Shown piece after piece: positions 11,537 through 43,605 of a stretch of DNA of 46,428 bases. Position numbers and translations under genes: made by a program. Positions within the stretch are counted from its first letter, which is position 1; every line of letters begins with the position of its first letter. Source of the DNA: Candidatus Competibacter sp. (lineage in GTDB: Bacteria > Pseudomonadota > Gammaproteobacteria > Competibacterales > Competibacteraceae); the NCBI GenBank assembly GCA_029624815.1, contig JARSSH010000064.1, forward strand, positions 1-46,428, in the 5' to 3' direction. The notes beneath the pieces were generated by a model. That model saw only the letters and a program-made list of their open reading frames with translations, did not search any database and had not been told where the DNA came from.

Positions 11537-13120
11537 TCAGCCCCGCCTGCTCGCCCGTTTCTCCAGCGCCTCCCAAACATGCTCGGCCAAACCCACGCCG
11601 ACCTCGTTAAAAGCCAGAAACGTCATGTCGGCGCCCGCCGCCTTCAGGGCTTCCGCCTCCTCGGGATAGCTGCTGATCGCGCCGATCACCCCCTCGAAGC
11701 CGTGCCGGCGCAACTGGCGCGTGGCGATGTTTTTCGCCTCGGGGTCCGGCATCGCCAGCACCACCGCCTTGAGACCGTCCAGCCGCAAGCGGTGCCAGAA
11801 TCCCGGATCTTCGGCATCGGCGTACACCACCCGCCGCCCCTCGTGGAGATGCCGTTCGACCTTGACCAGATCCGAGTCGATGCCGGACACCATCCGCACC
11901 TTGTGCGGACCCGGAACATGCTGGCGCTTTTTGAGAAAATCGTAGGCGGACGTGCCGGCGTGACCCATGCCGAGAATCAGGATCTGGGTGCTGCCCAGCG
12001 ACACCGGCTGCTCGTCGGGATGATGGTCGGGCCGCTCGAACCGCGCCAACCGATGTTCGAATCGCTCGTACAGGACATGGGCAAAGCGGTTGAGCGGCGC
12101 GGCGATAGCGAAGGACAGCGCCACGGTCAAGGCCAGCAATACCAGCCATTCGGAGCCCAGTTGCCCATTGCCGACCATGAACTTCACTACGATCAGCGCA
12201 AACTCGCTGTAGCTGGCCAGCGCCAGGGCGGTCAAAAAAGCGGTGCGGGCACGCAGGCGGAAAGCAACCAGGATGAAGAAAAACAGCGCCGCCTTGAGCG
12301 GTAGCAGCAGCGCCAGCAGCAACGCCCCGCCCAGCGTGGCCAGGCTGGGCCAACCTTCCAGGCCGATTTGCAGGAAAAAACCGACCAGCAACACTTCCTT
12401 CAGCGACCACAGAGCCTTGGAAAGCTCCACCGCCCGGGAATGGTTCGACAGCAGAACCCCCAATAGCAACGCACCCAACTCCGAGCTCAGCCCCAGATGT
12501 TCAAAACCCAGGCCGCCGACCACCAGCGCCAGCGCCAGTCCATACAGCACCAGCAATTCATCGTGGCCGCTCCAGTCCAGCAGCTTCATCACCAGCGGCT
12601 GCAACAGCGGCAGCCCCAGCACCAGCAAGGCCCACGGCGACGGCGCTCCCACGCCCGCCACCGTCATCAAGAGCAGCGCCGCCAAATCCTGAATGATCAG
12701 AATGCCGATCGCCACCCGGCCGTGAAAGGCGCGCAGTTCCGCCTTTTCCTCCAGACTCTTCGCGGCCAACACCGTGCTGGAAAACCCCAGGGTCGTTGCC
12801 AACAGCAGCGCCTGTCCCAGCGGCAGCATCAACGTCGCGAGCAGGCCCAGCCCCAGCAACACCCCGCTGACCGCCAGATGCAGCACCCCCCCACCCCAAA
12901 CCTCGGGACGAGTCAGACTTTTGATCCGCAGCTTGAGGCCGACGCTAAACAGCAGCAGCAATACGCCAGCATGGGCGATCCGTTCGAGCAGTTCGCTGCC
13001 CTCCTGCCCCAGGGCATTCAGCACGAATCCCGCCGCCAGATAACCGACCAGCGACGGCAAGCCCAAGTAACGAAACAGCAATCCCAGAAAAAAAGCGAGT
13101 GCAAGCCAAAAGGCATCCAT
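11537..13120 (-). CDS. Kef/YbaL-type monovalent cation:proton antiporter (CPA2) with TrkA-N domain
   Basis: A 527-residue inner-membrane antiporter. About 12 hydrophobic helices fill residues 1-365. They start with '[16 protein letters not shown]' and include '[15 protein letters not shown]', the CPA2 pattern, and '[13 protein letters not shown]'. A Rossmann-type TrkA-N (RCK) domain follows at about 375-490 with '[17 protein letters not shown]', the dinucleotide loop. This build is that of YbaL/KefB-like K+ or Na+ exporters. An in-frame GTG at 13180 would add a charged 20-residue tail; the ATG at 13120 has GGAG 12 bases upstream and begins at the first helix, so it is preferred. The exact ion is not readable. 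Confidence 0.9.
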
Positions 13121-38999: not shown

Positions 39000-40286
39000 A
39001 TGTCCGGGCCGACCTTAACCGAGCAGTTGACCGAACTGATCGCCACCAAACCGGTCGCGGCCACCGATTTGGAACATGCGGCGCTGCTAACGCTGGATGC
39101 GATGGCCAATGCGCTGGGAGCACGGACGACCGAGCCGGGCGCGATCCTGCTGCGTTGGGCCGGTGAAACCGCGATCACCGACGCCGCGCGTCGCGCCTTC
39201 CTGTTGGGATCGCTGACCCACATTTTGGAAACCGACGATCTGCACCGGGCTTCGGTCGTGCATCCGGGCTGCGTGGTGGCGCCGGCGGCCTGGGCGGTGG
39301 CGGTGCGGGAAGGCATCCGCGGTCACGCCATGCTCAGGGCAGTGCTATGGGGGTTCGAGGCGGCGACCCGGGTGGGGATGGCGGTTGGCCCGGCCCATTA
39401 TCGGCTTTGGCACAACACCGCCACCTGCGGTCCCTATGGCTCGGCCATGGCGACGGCGGCGCTGCTGGGCTTGGATAGACCGGCCGCGGTCCACGCGCTG
39501 GGCAATGCCGGTGCACAATCTTCCGGATTATGGCAATTTTTGGAGACCGGGACGATGACCAAGCACCTGCACGCGGGGCGGGCAGCGGAGGCGGGGGTGC
39601 TGGCGGCGGACTTGGCGCGGTTCGGTTTCACCGGCCCACCAGCCATTTTGGAGGGCGCCAAGGGTTGGTTCGCCGCCACCTGTCCCGACGCCGACCCCGC
39701 CGCGGTAACGCGCGACCCGGACGCCCCTTGGCAGTTGCTGCTCACCTCGATCAAACCCTGGCCGTCTTGCCGGCACACCCATCCGGCCATCGACGCGGCC
39801 CGTGAATTACGGCATCGCTGTCCGGTTGACGCCATTGAACGGGTGGAGGTGGAGACCTATCCGGCGGCGCTGGAGGTTTGCGATCGACCGCTGCCGCAAA
39901 GCGATTACGAAGCTAAATTCTCGCTGCAACATTGCGTGGCGGCGGCACTGGCGCGAGACACCGTGGATTTCGCCGCGTTCGCCGAGCCGGCGCGGGTCGA
40001 ACTGGCCGAGTTTCGCGAGCGGGTGACTCCACGGGTGGCCGAACCCTATGCCGCGGCCTATCCCCTCGCTTGGGGAAGCGCGGTAACGGCGGTGCTGCGC
40101 AAGGGCGAACGGATTACGGTCAGGCGAACCCATGCCAAGGGCGATCCCGAAGCGCCGCTGACGCCGGTCGAGTTGATCGCCAAGGCGCGGATGTTGATGG
40201 TTCATGGTGGGATTCATGAGCCAGATCGGCTCATCGATGCCATACTGGCGTTATCCGATGACTCGCCGCTGCCGGAGCTGCCTTGA
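39000..40286 (+). CDS. MmgE/PrpD family protein
   Basis: A 428-residue member of the MmgE/PrpD family, which includes 2-methylcitrate dehydratase and cis-aconitate decarboxylase. Family landmarks are 'SLTHILETDDLHRASVVHPG' (active-site-like His/Asp), 'GFEAATRVGMAVGPAHY', 'GTMTKHLHAGRAAEAG' (conserved Lys-His) and 'SIKPWPSCRHTHPAIDA'. No propionate genes are adjacent, so PrpD activity cannot be claimed. The ATG follows GGGAGAG. It stands alone between two terminator structures. Confidence 0.9.
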   Translation: MSGPTLTEQLTELIATKPVAATDLEHAALLTLDAMANALGARTTEPGAILLRWAGETAITDAARRAFLLGSLTHILETDDLHRASVVHPGCVVAPAAWAVAVREGIRGHAMLRAVLWGFEAATRVGMAVGPAHYRLWHNTATCGPYGSAMATAALLGLDRPAAVHALGNAGAQSSGLWQFLETGTMTKHLHAGRAAEAGVLAADLARFGFTGPPAILEGAKGWFAATCPDADPAAVTRDPDAPWQLLLTSIKPWPSCRHTHPAIDAARELRHRCPVDAIERVEVETYPAALEVCDRPLPQSDYEAKFSLQHCVAAALARDTVDFAAFAEPARVELAEFRERVTPRVAEPYAAAYPLAWGSAVTAVLRKGERITVRRTHAKGDPEAPLTPVELIAKARMLMVHGGIHEPDRLIDAILALSDDSPLPELP

Positions 40287-40358
40287 ATGAATTTGGGTAA
40301 TGATTACGGCGGTGCAACAAAAAAATCGGGGATAACTCGCTGTTTTTTCAGTCAAAAT

Positions 40359-40381
40359 GTTGTTTTTTGCCGAAAAACAAC
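40359..40381. promoter_or_regulatory. A/T-rich perfect hairpin upstream of the candidate small RNA
   Basis: GTTGTTTTT (40359-40367) and AAAAACAAC (40373-40381) form a 9-bp perfect inverted repeat around TGCCG. It lies about 30 bases upstream of the extended -10 box at 40411. It could be an operator for that promoter or a weak terminator for the MmgE/PrpD gene. Confidence 0.4.
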
Positions 40382-40410
40382 GAAAAGTAGTATATTTGCT
40401 CTAAATTTTT

Positions 40411-40419
40411 TGCTAGGAT
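40411..40419 (+). promoter_or_regulatory. Extended -10 promoter of the candidate small RNA
   Basis: TGCTAGGAT matches the extended -10 pattern TGnTAnnnT. No good -35 box is at 17 bases, as is common for such promoters. Transcription would start near 40426. Confidence 0.45.
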
Positions 40420-40425
40420 GACAAT

Positions 40426-40519
40426 TGTGTAGCAGGCATCTTCGCTTCTCCTCAGTCTGCTATGCATCCTCCTTTGGTGGTTTTTGGCCGGACACCCTTG
40501 TCCGGCCCTTTTTGTTTTT
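40426..40519 (+). ncRNA. Candidate small RNA with C/U-rich anti-Shine-Dalgarno segments
   Basis: A predicted transcript of about 94 nt. A stem TAGCAG/CTGCTA (40430-40435 with 40457-40462) presents a 21-base loop containing CTTCTCCTC. An unpaired segment TCCTCCTTT follows at 40467-40475. Both are complementary to purine-rich ribosome-binding sites. The transcript ends in a strong GC hairpin with a T-run. There is no open frame of note. This build resembles small RNAs that block translation starts, but I know no named family that it matches. Confidence 0.45.
40486..40519 (+). terminator. Strong Rho-independent terminator
   Basis: GGCCGGACA (40486-40494) and TGTCCGGCC (40499-40507) form a 9-bp perfect stem with loop CCCT, followed by CTTTTTGTTTTT. 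It is about 200 bases past the MmgE/PrpD stop, further than usual, and is therefore better explained as the end of the candidate small RNA. Confidence 0.85.
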
Positions 40520-40911: not shown

Positions 40912-43605
40912 ATGAAATTCACGTATCCGGGGTTGACCGATCAGGCAGTCGAAGCCTCCCGCGCCCAGCATGGTTCTAATGCCGTGGCTAGCCAGGAGAT
41001 CGAAACCTTCTGGGAAAAACTCGTGGGCAATCTGAAGGATCCGATCATCATTATCCTGATCGTGGCGCTCCTTATCACCGTGGCATTGTGGCTGTTTGGC
41101 CACGGCGAGTGGTACGAGAGCGTCGGCATCGCCTTTGCCGTGGTGATCGCCACCTTCGTCGCCACCTGGTCGGAGCACAGCAACGAGCAATCCTTCCAGA
41201 AGTTGATGGAGGAGGCCTCGCTGATTCTGGTCAAGGCGTTCCGTAATGGCCATCTAACCGAAATCTCGATCAACGATCTGGTGGTCGGCGATCAGATCCT
41301 GCTGCAACCGGGCGATACCGTCCCCACCGACGGCCTGTTGATCGCCGGCCATGCCGAAGTGGACGAAGCGGCGCTGACCGGCGAATCCGAGCCGGTGAAA
41401 AAGACCGCCGGGCCGGAGGGCGCCGATCTGGCGACAGTGGCCGAAGAACATCGCTTGTCCCGCGCGGGTCTCCTGGTCGATGGTGAATGCGTGATGCAGG
41501 CCACCGCCGTGGGCGACCAGACCCGCTACGGCCAGACCATGAAGGAGTTGCTGTCCGCCGAGGATCGACTCTCGCCTTTGCAACACAAGCTGACCGTGCT
41601 GGGCGGTCGCATCGCCACCTTCGGCTACATCGGCGCGACCTTCATTTTTATCGCCTTCATGCTCAACAACATCTTCTGGGAACCCCTGCCCGAAGGCGTT
41701 GCCAGCTACTGGGCGCAGGATGGCGGCGTCATCTTCAAGGATTTCGTGACCGCCGCCATTCTCGCCATCATCGTCATCGTGGTGGCGGTGCCGGAAGGCT
41801 TGCCAATGATGATCGCCATGGTGCTGGCGATCAACATGAAGAAGTTGCTGAGCGTCAAGGTGCTGGTGCGCAAGCTGTTGGGTATCGAAACCGCCGGCAG
41901 CCTCAACATCCTGTTTACCGACAAGACCGGCACCCTGACCCAGGGCCGCCTGTCGGTCAGCGCCTTCCTGACCGGGGCCGCGACGCGCCATGAAAAACTG
42001 GAAGACATTCCCCAGGCCTTGCGGGATACCGCCGGCTTCGCCCTGCGCAACAACACCAGCGCGGTGATCGACGCCAGCGACCCGAACGATCCGAAAATGG
42101 TCGGCGCCGATCGCACCGAACAGGCGCTGTTGCGGTTCGTCATGCCGTATCTAGCGCAGTCCGGCAACGTGGACATCGTTGATGTCATTCCTTTCAACAG
42201 CAGCCGCAAATTTTCCGCGACTCAGGTGACCGGCGACCGGGCCTTGACCTTGGTCAAGGGCGCCCCGGAAGTGATTCTGCGCAACTGCGCGCGCTGTCTG
42301 GACGCCGAGGGTAACGCCGTCGATCTCAGCGACCCAGGCGCCCTGGAAGCGGCCATGCGCGAACTGTCCTCGCGGGCCATGCGCCTGCTGGCGGTGGCGG
42401 TGACCGAGACGCCGATCGACGACAGCAAGGCGCTGCCGACGAATCTGACCCTGGTCGGCGTGTTCGGAATGCGCGACGAACTGCGCGAGACCTCCTACGC
42501 CTCGGTGAAAACCGCCAAAAATGCCGGCATCCACGTCATCATGATCACCGGCGACGCCAAGGAAACCGCCCAAGCCATCGCCAAGGATGTGGGGCTGCTG
42601 GAAGACGATCCACAGGCGATTATCCTGACTTCGGCGGAGCTGTCCCAACTGTCCGACGAGGAGGTAAAACAGAAGTTGCCGCATCTCTACGTGGTGGCGC
42701 GGGCCTTTCCCACCGACAAGAGCCGCCTGGTCAAGCTGGCCAAGGAACTGGGTCTGGTGGCCGGTATGACCGGCGACGGGGTCAACGACGCGCCGGCGGT
42801 GAAAAACGCCGATGTCGGTTTCGCCATGGGCAGCGGCACCGAGATGACCAAGGAATCCGGCGACATCGTCATTCTCGACGATAACTTCTCCTCGCTGACC
42901 AAGGCCGTGCTGTACGGGCGCACCTTGTTCAAATCGATCCGCAAGTTCCTGATTTTCCAATTGACGGTCGGCATTTCCGCCGTACTGGTGGCGTTTCTGG
43001 GGCCGTTCTTCGGCCATGATTTGCCGCTGACCATGACGCAGTTATTGTGGGTGAACATTATCATGGACACCCTCGCTGGACTGGCCTTCGCCGGGGAGGC
43101 TGCGTTGCAGCGCTATATGCTAGAAAAACCGATTCGCCGCGATGAGCCGCTGATCAACGGAGACATGTGGTCGGCAATCCTGCTCAACGGCCTGCTGGTG
43201 GCGGTTTTAAGCCTGTTGTTCCTGACCAGCGACTGGACGCATACCCTATTCCCGGGCAGCAACGAACTGAACGCCGAAACACGAGCGACGCCGTTCGCCA
43301 CGGCCTTCTTCACCTTCTTCGTGTTTCTGCACATCTTCAACACCTTCAACGCCCGCACCCAAGGACTGAATCTGTTCGAGAATCTGTTCGAGAACCGGCT
43401 GTTCCCGATCATCATTCCGGGGATTATCGTGATGCAGGCGGTGTTCATCGCCTTTGGCGGTGAAGTATTGCGAACAGTCGGCTTGTCGATTTCCGAATGG
43501 ACGACCGTTGTGTTAATGGCGCTTGTCATTATTCCGATCGATCTCGTGCGCAAGATCGCCCGGAATAAGTGGTTCGGCAATCCGATACGGCAGGAAACCG
43601 CGTAA
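40912..43605 (+). CDS. P2-type calcium-translocating P-type ATPase
   Basis: An 897-residue ion pump that exports Ca2+ at the cost of ATP. The actuator loop is TGES at 156-159. The M4 ion-site motif is PEGLP at 294-298, as in Ca2+ pumps. The phosphorylated Asp337 is in DKTGTLTQ. Further blocks are 'KGAPEVIL' (nucleotide), 'MITGDAKET' and 'MTGDGVNDAPAVKNADVG' (hinge). The C-terminal helices include 'TMTQLLWVNIIMDTLAGLAFA', with the M6 Asn and Asp used in calcium binding. The N-terminus is short, starting close to the cation-ATPase N domain. The start ATG follows GAAGAGCC. The last gene before slt, with a 17-base gap. Confidence 0.93.
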   Translation: MKFTYPGLTDQAVEASRAQHGSNAVASQEIETFWEKLVGNLKDPIIIILIVALLITVALWLFGHGEWYESVGIAFAVVIATFVATWSEHSNEQSFQKLMEEASLILVKAFRNGHLTEISINDLVVGDQILLQPGDTVPTDGLLIAGHAEVDEAALTGESEPVKKTAGPEGADLATVAEEHRLSRAGLLVDGECVMQATAVGDQTRYGQTMKELLSAEDRLSPLQHKLTVLGGRIATFGYIGATFIFIAFMLNNIFWEPLPEGVASYWAQDGGVIFKDFVTAAILAIIVIVVAVPEGLPMMIAMVLAINMKKLLSVKVLVRKLLGIETAGSLNILFTDKTGTLTQGRLSVSAFLTGAATRHEKLEDIPQALRDTAGFALRNNTSAVIDASDPNDPKMVGADRTEQALLRFVMPYLAQSGNVDIVDVIPFNSSRKFSATQVTGDRALTLVKGAPEVILRNCARCLDAEGNAVDLSDPGALEAAMRELSSRAMRLLAVAVTETPIDDSKALPTNLTLVGVFGMRDELRETSYASVKTAKNAGIHVIMITGDAKETAQAIAKDVGLLEDDPQAIILTSAELSQLSDEEVKQKLPHLYVVARAFPTDKSRLVKLAKELGLVAGMTGDGVNDAPAVKNADVGFAMGSGTEMTKESGDIVILDDNFSSLTKAVLYGRTLFKSIRKFLIFQLTVGISAVLVAFLGPFFGHDLPLTMTQLLWVNIIMDTLAGLAFAGEAALQRYMLEKPIRRDEPLINGDMWSAILLNGLLVAVLSLLFLTSDWTHTLFPGSNELNAETRATPFATAFFTFFVFLHIFNTFNARTQGLNLFENLFENRLFPIIIPGIIVMQAVFIAFGGEVLRTVGLSISEWTTVVLMALVIIPIDLVRKIARNKWFGNPIRQETA

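Follow-up and report, generated by a model that had tools for sequence, protein, structure and literature searches.

A small RNA locus of Candidatus Competibacter, very probably a new branch of an anti-Shine-Dalgarno RNA family known mainly from betaproteobacteria

Results

The locus and its conservation in the family

The window, i.e., the whole stretch of 46,428 nt of Candidatus Competibacter DNA analysed here, carries between an MmgE/PrpD gene (39000-40286) and a Ca2+ P-type ATPase gene (40912-43605) the elements of an RNA of about 90 nt, namely an extended -10 promoter, a 12-bp stem-loop, a CU-rich linker and a terminator (Table 1). The RNA begins 140 nt past the MmgE/PrpD stop codon, and 393 nt separate its T-run from the ATPase start. 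These elements had been described in an original prediction, and each was found again at its place: the extended -10 box, the stem-loop holding a CU segment in its loop, the free CU segment TCCTCCTTT (40467-40475), and the 9-bp terminator (stem 40486-40507, 7 G-C pairs) followed by a T-rich run (40509-40519), all within an interval that is indeed free of genes.

Table 1. Features of the small RNA locus, in positions of the window
Feature	Positions	Strand	Remarks
Degenerate PhaR-like site GGCGGTGCA	40308..40316	.	8/9 positions of YGCRNYGCR; ~110-118 nt upstream of presumed start; function doubtful
Inverted repeat (dyad) GTTGTTTTTTGCCGAAAAACAAC	40359..40381	.	In 23/27 A-type loci with enough sequence; presumed regulator site
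Upstream promoter element GTATATTTGCTCTAA	40390..40404	+	Pattern in 23/28 A-type loci; like element before several C-type copies
Extended -10 box TGCTAGGAT	40411..40419	+	TGnTARnWT-like in 24/28 A-type loci; start presumably near 40426
Small RNA, presumed transcript	40426..40513	+	Fold z -4.8; 26 full orthologues; 3' end within T-rich run to 40519
Stem-loop 1 (arms 40426-40437, 40455-40466)	40426..40466	+	11 aligned pairs, 8 changed on both sides
Loop anti-Shine-Dalgarno segment CTTCTCCTC	40445..40453	+	TTCTCCTC in 22/28 loci
3' module (linker and terminator), common to paralogues	40463..40512	+	Model R2: 64.1 bits
Linker ATCCTCCTTTGGTGG	40466..40480	+	Invariant 26/26; 40469-40480 complementary to acsA leader, 12 nt
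Intrinsic terminator and T-rich run	40486..40519	+	9-bp stem; stem pairs kept in 100% of cells, 26 sequences

A DNA search returned matches in 31 of 59 genomes. Besides the genome of the window, these were 29 of the 36 further genomes of the family and 1 of the 22 from outside it. Full orthologues, which we label A-type after the window, are present in 26 of the 37 family genomes (Candidatus Competibacter and kin), and the remaining family matches contain the module only or the promoter only. The conserved block extends from the upstream inverted repeat through the promoter and the RNA and ends at the T-run. An MmgE/PrpD-like C-terminal peptide is encoded directly upstream in 26 of 28 A-type loci, thus the A-type locus is old. 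Relatives had been named as the place where the prediction could fail; by sequence, they keep the promoter, helix, linker and terminator, and most loci also keep the loop segment.

Structure and conserved segments of the RNA

The 94-nt RNA folds at -35.0 kcal/mol, compared with -20.1 +/- 3.1 for shuffled sequences (z -4.8), none of the 200 shuffles being as good. Across the alignment of 26 sequences, 99.8% of cells are consistent with the 19 base pairs that make up both helices. Both sides have changed in 10 of these pairs, against 3.6 in shuffles, and none of 500 shuffles reaches the covariation score of the whole structure. Around the linker, a weak CC.CC/GG.GG pairing is predicted only, and its four pairs never vary. 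The terminator, by pattern count, is unremarkable alone (1 found and 0.9 expected in the 701-nt region), as is the promoter pattern, and the RNA was therefore judged real by comparison, that is, on the orthologues, the -10 box, the covariation and the boundary at the T-run.

Both anti-Shine-Dalgarno (anti-SD) segments of the original prediction are present, but they are not equally conserved. The linker AUCCUCCUUUGGUGG is invariant in all 26 BLAST-found orthologues, with 15 positions fixed, whereas the loop segment reads TTCTCCTC in 22 of 28 A-type loci, TTCTGCT[CT] in 3 and neither in the other 3, these last all belonging to one genus (g5). Judged by these counts, the most guarded part of the RNA is the linker rather than the loop. 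The alignment supports selection acting on the RNA, its helix, its linker and its terminator, and the stretch very probably encodes a genuine small RNA that evolution has conserved.

Promoter and upstream elements

A promoter scan of the region did not list the site at 40411-40419, which has no good -35, and listed instead a site at 40367-40396. The latter was rejected, and 40411-40419 preferred, because the scan site overlaps the conserved dyad and upstream element and its own -10 is not conserved. Only one further near-copy of the dyad occurs in the window's genome, with 2 mismatches, on contig 45 (23221-23243; L034), about 200 nt before a TRAP-TAXI solute-binding gene. Control of the window copy by PhaR is doubtful, since its PhaR-like site agrees at 8 of 9 positions and lies off the promoter, at about -118 to -110.

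Two side observations concern these elements. At about 1440-1540 of locus L029 (genome G018), the A-type dyad and promoter are present and the RNA is absent downstream, as in a decayed or rearranged locus; and several of the C-type copies (L003, L083, L090, L092, L102, L109, L114) have a GTnTTTGCTCTAA-like element in common with the A-type promoter.

The 3' module, its paralogues and its relation to RF02278

The 3' module occurs four times in the window's genome: in the window, twice in tandem on contig 14 and once on contig 69. The contig 14 copies (12515-12699; L002, L133) are B-type, and each of their promoters has a strict PhaR-type box. B-type, a label of our own as are A-type and C-type, denotes copies with a sigma-70-like promoter and a small GACATC or ACATTC hairpin, often in tandem. 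Paralogues and distant relatives stand beside other neighbours and have sigma-70-like promoters, and many distant copies read ACTCCTCCATCCTCCTTTGGTGGTT ahead of the terminator. One record (L148, genome G331) holds three tandem copies in about 270 nt, and in two unrelated records (L114, L163) a module copy lies less than about 1 kb from an RNase P RNA gene, perhaps by chance.

Module model R2, built partly from pattern-found loci, gave optimistic E-values, as 93 of 398 phylum-sample genomes, many of them outside the class, passed E<=1e-4; therefore, a 36-bit cut-off was used, drawn after the best score outside the class (32.1 bits in the phylum sample) was known. At 36 bits or more, the module is found in 35 of the 37 family genomes and, by a hand count, in 78 of the 369 genomes sampled from the class. 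A pattern scan of named genomes places it in Candidatus Competibacter, Contendobacter, Plasticicumulans, Cardiobacteriaceae and allies. Loci L058-L115 were found by exact pattern and their linker is invariant by construction, so that the claim of invariance rests on the 26 BLAST-found orthologues; L106, L107 and L115 were judged chance matches and excluded from the module set.

The original prediction had not recognised the family, and a search of Rfam (15) indeed returned no family at gathering score in the window. SorY, anti-hemB, PrrF and suhB/MmgR were discarded as identities, all scoring under gathering in the window. With permissive scoring, the best match by E-value was RF02278 (28.1 bits, gathering 50). 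In 31 scanned module loci (30 places, one locus twice), 2 reach gathering at the module. RF02278 itself is reached at gathering by two matches of the phylum sample (65.6 and 73.2 bits), and of 20 other module loci, 13 show E<=0.01 to RF02278, with scores below gathering (30.2-47.2 bits). We take this as an apparent continuum leading from betaproteobacterial double-hairpin RNAs (RF02278) via intermediates to the window RNA. Common descent of the module and RF02278 is likely, not proven, because the shared stretch is short and CU-rich. The window RNA is very probably a new branch of a small RNA family so far known mainly from betaproteobacteria.

PhaR-type boxes on sister copies

The PhaR motif of Sinorhizobium meliloti is given as WNWD2NYGCRNYGCRNH2WNW, and PhaR is reported to repress the small RNA MmgR (PMC12542648). 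B-type promoters carry TTGACGCA.TGCARCA, in which the -35 runs into the palindrome. A strict box within 215 nt is found in 29 of 33 B-type, 7 of 29 A-type and none of 7 C-type copies, shuffled sequences giving 0.9, 0.6 and 0.4, respectively. In the window's genome, two PhaR-like boxes also stand just before a phasin gene (Phasin_2; contig 55, 28644-28722, L048-L050), which is followed by a class I PHA synthase gene.

Within Cardiobacteriales, Rappaport israeli and Dichelobacter nodosus have phaR and boxed small RNA promoters; phaR was not found in Cardiobacterium hominis, C. valvarum and a Wohlfahrtiimonas, whose small RNA promoters are without a box. The rule suggested by these five genomes was predicted beforehand for three more, and held in 3 of 3, hence 8 of 8 in total; 3 of the 4 Cardiobacteriales PhaR matches score just below the curated cut-off (104.1-108.5 against 109.45 bits). 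For a wider set, 68 genomes were taken from the 74 outside the family that reach 36 bits, leaving out G412, G106, G208, G288, G226 and G396, and G615 and G717 were added. There, a strict box within 180 nt upstream of the module is present in 11 of 21 phaR-positive and 2 of 49 phaR-negative genomes (Fisher p = 9e-6, a value that ignores relatedness; shuffles 0.8 and 2.1), and 10 of the 21 phaR-positive genomes have no strict box within that distance. The count was not fully blind, as boxes in L135, L141, L145 and L163 had been noticed earlier and L095, seen before, has the same sequence as L130 (G308). The boxed phaR-positive genomes span 8 of the 14 phaR-positive families, in which relatives are not independent. 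The two boxed phaR-negative genomes include G258, which is 86% complete; the box of G052 may be due to chance. Judging by their promoters, the sister copies seem to be linked to the regulation of the bioplastic store.

Candidate targets

In the window's genome, no sites complementary to the 16-nt linker with at most 2 mismatches were found outside the four small RNA genes. Pairing was then scored over 323 gene starts, 308 of them distinct and all with guessed start codons, taken from 384 kb of chosen stretches (several around box matches) and the window. There was no general excess of pairing over these starts, the means being -13.8 kcal/mol for the linker against -14.9 for its reversal, and -9.8 against -9.5 for the loop. 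Any targeting would thus be selective rather than general, since the linker pairs no better than its reversal over all starts.

The strongest linker duplex among the 323 starts was that of acsA, encoding an acetate-CoA ligase, with 12 perfect pairs and -23.2 kcal/mol; its leader CACCAAAGGAG pairs with the linker beyond the SD proper. For this gene, 34 close matches were collected and the loci of 30 were examined, with several leaders taken relative to a codon slightly upstream of the probable ATG. In these 30 mutually related family leaders, the median linker duplex was -22.1, against -14.6 for the reversal. A perfect complement of 10 nt or more is present in 16 of the 30 leaders and in 2 of the 308 sampled genes, acsA itself being one of the 2; the other 14 leaders fall short of that length. 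In 27 of the 30 leaders, CACC stands at most 14 nt 5' of GGAG, compared with 8 of the 94 sampled genes that have GGAG, again including acsA. Between -7 and -4, each leader position is conserved in 23-26 of the 30, compared with 9-18 at -24 to -8, and post-SD positions are conserved too. This pairing is open to every module copy and is not specific to that of the window. From the predicted duplexes, we infer that acsA is the best target candidate of the linker.

Other near-top starts were those of PhaC (linker, -21.0), whose PHA synthase leader AACCACCATAACGACGAGAGGAA (L246:9402-11216) pairs well with the linker; an acetoacetyl-CoA reductase (loop, -17.7); and a biotin-carboxylase protein (loop, -20.7). 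A thiolase-like gene, beside a gene that we take to be phaB, ranked 64 and 89 of 323. By eye, and outside this ranking, the SD stretch of the phasin gene, TTTGAGGAGAG, has an 8-nt match to the loop. On contig 45 (L244:13951-16836), the leader CCCACCAAAGGAA of a gene for a 961-residue protein with an Orn/Lys/Arg decarboxylase major domain is complementary to the linker over 11 nt without mismatch.

Discussion

Proposed mechanism and alternatives

The features described above lead us to favour, with reasonable confidence, a trans-acting small RNA of about 90 nt with its own extended -10 promoter and its own terminator, which would repress the translation of some carbon-metabolism mRNAs. The RNA would be made from this promoter and end at this terminator; its invariant linker UCCUCCUUUGGUGG would pair over Shine-Dalgarno sequences, helped in most genera by the loop CUUCUCCUC, and translation of a limited set of metabolic mRNAs would be blocked, acsA being the best candidate. 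Silencing would probably proceed by covering of the ribosome-binding place, as the original prediction had proposed; this reading gains support from the conservation in relatives, and the mechanism fits the best weak Rfam match, RF02278, whose small RNAs contain ribosome-binding sites in reverse complement. Where a sister copy has a PhaR box, it would be released when PHA granules bind PhaR, and the window copy more likely answers to another, presumed regulator at the dyad.

The RNA could instead be mainly a 3'-UTR product of the MmgE/PrpD mRNA, arising by read-through, stopping at a shared terminator and being trimmed to a stable 3' piece that acts in trans. Its start only 140 nt past the stop codon and the retention of that neighbour in 26 of 28 loci are in line with such an origin, for which there is a precedent in the related Bordetella S17S, reported to arise by RNase E processing (PMC11722255). 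Since a terminator scan finds none between the MmgE/PrpD stop codon and the RNA, read-through or processing may operate beside the RNA's own promoter. As the main source of the RNA, however, we regard it as unlikely: the promoter element, the extended -10 box and the upstream dyad are conserved right before the RNA, and the paralogues, like the distant relatives, stand next to different genes and are preceded by sigma-70-like promoters. Still less probable, in our judgement, is a decoy or generic brake, in which the anti-SD would mimic the 3' end of 16S rRNA and lower translation broadly, or bind a protein, without chosen targets. Overproduced RF02278 members do slow growth (PMC5688073), and linker pairing with the sampled leaders does not exceed that of the reversal. 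However, the GGUGG part of the linker, which is not anti-SD, is equally invariant and fits the CACC conserved before the acsA SD, and S17S is reported to repress a named target directly without impairing exponential growth of E. coli (PMC11722255).

The position of the RNA ahead of the ATPase gene, and a 19-codon frame starting at ATGCATCC in the window, might suggest that the RNA serves the Ca2+ ATPase gene as its leader or attenuator, or that the stretch is a short coding gene. Both were rejected, and we give them hardly any credence, given that the conservation stops at the T-run, 393 nt before the ATPase start; that the ATG has no counterpart in the other 25 orthologues and the changes in helix 1 are compensatory; and that the module recurs elsewhere in the genome.

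Significance

With the trans-acting RNA as the preferred reading, a wider picture may be drawn, although we offer it tentatively and would not yet rely on it. A single anti-SD small RNA family may extend across Beta- and Gammaproteobacteria and, in bioplastic makers, may repeatedly have been put under PhaR, the granule sensor; a full store would release PhaR and switch on the RNAs, which would shut acsA, and with it acetate activation, at the ribosome, forming a feedback from storage to carbon intake. The window copy would then belong to a branch in Competibacteraceae with an input of its own, at a new 23-bp dyad.

Acetate uptake and storage of the acetate as PHA sustain glycogen-accumulating organisms of the Competibacter type. 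No Competibacter small RNA was found in the literature searched, and a conserved small RNA with a testable target in acsA and with sisters that look storage-regulated would offer a handle on post-transcriptional control in Competibacter. It would also extend a mainly betaproteobacterial family to a good part of the sampled Gammaproteobacteria (78/369). Because PhaR boxes and phaR genes agree in their occurrence, a link from PHB to a small RNA can be checked in cultured gammaproteobacteria, e.g., Plasticicumulans; a link of this kind has been published for Sinorhizobium MmgR (PMC12542648, PMC8401924). Taken together, the window RNA is a new branch of a known kind of small RNA, with two specific testable leads, the PhaR boxes on its sisters and the acsA leader pairing.

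Comparison with known systems

The closest known system is RF02278, the Betaproteobacteria toxic small RNA, which includes the Burkholderia double-hairpin RNAs ncS03/05/27/62 and bdhR1, the Bordetella S17 being related (PMC5688073, PMC11722255). These RNAs are described as carrying reverse complements of ribosome-binding sites, with coverage of these sites predicted, and overproduction of ncS27 as slowing growth (PMC5688073); a metabolic shutdown is reported for NcS27 (PMC10987360) and direct repression for S17S (PMC11722255, a preprint). As in the window, unpaired CU-rich stretches complementary to ribosome-binding sites, a CCUCCUUUGGUGG core followed by a terminator hairpin, and several copies per genome are reported (PMC5688073, PMC11722255), and the window RNA likewise has a CU-rich anti-SD core and then a terminator hairpin. 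It differs from RF02278 in its score (28.1 bits, well short of the gathering value of 50), in its long covarying 5' stem-loop with a first CU segment in the loop, in its promoter region, and perhaps in the first hairpin, for which only a weak pairing is predicted around the linker.

The Cuckoo RNAs of Alphaproteobacteria are multicopy RNAs with anti-SD CCUCCUCCC hairpin loops in the neighbourhood of DUF1127; by this description, they resemble the window RNA in the anti-SD motifs in hairpin loops and in being multicopy.

The Neisseria RNAs NmsRA/NmsRB (RcoF, NgncR_162/163; RF02877) are siblings reported to repress TCA and propionate genes through the SD by means of anti-SDs (PMC5362039). As in the window RNA, one of their two anti-SD segments is reported to lie in a loop and the other to be single-stranded (PMC5362039); the contig 14 paralogues are in tandem as well. 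No RF02877 match was listed in the window, and the B-type locus L095 scores 23.2 bits (gathering 52). Finally, Sinorhizobium MmgR (RF00519) is a PhaR-repressed small RNA that holds down phasins and PHB (PMC12542648, PMC8401924). It differs from the window RNA in being alphaproteobacterial (the window scores 18.9 bits, gathering 41) and in having a PhaR operator on its promoter, the window being without a strict PhaR box; its parallel lies rather with the PhaR-boxed sister copies.
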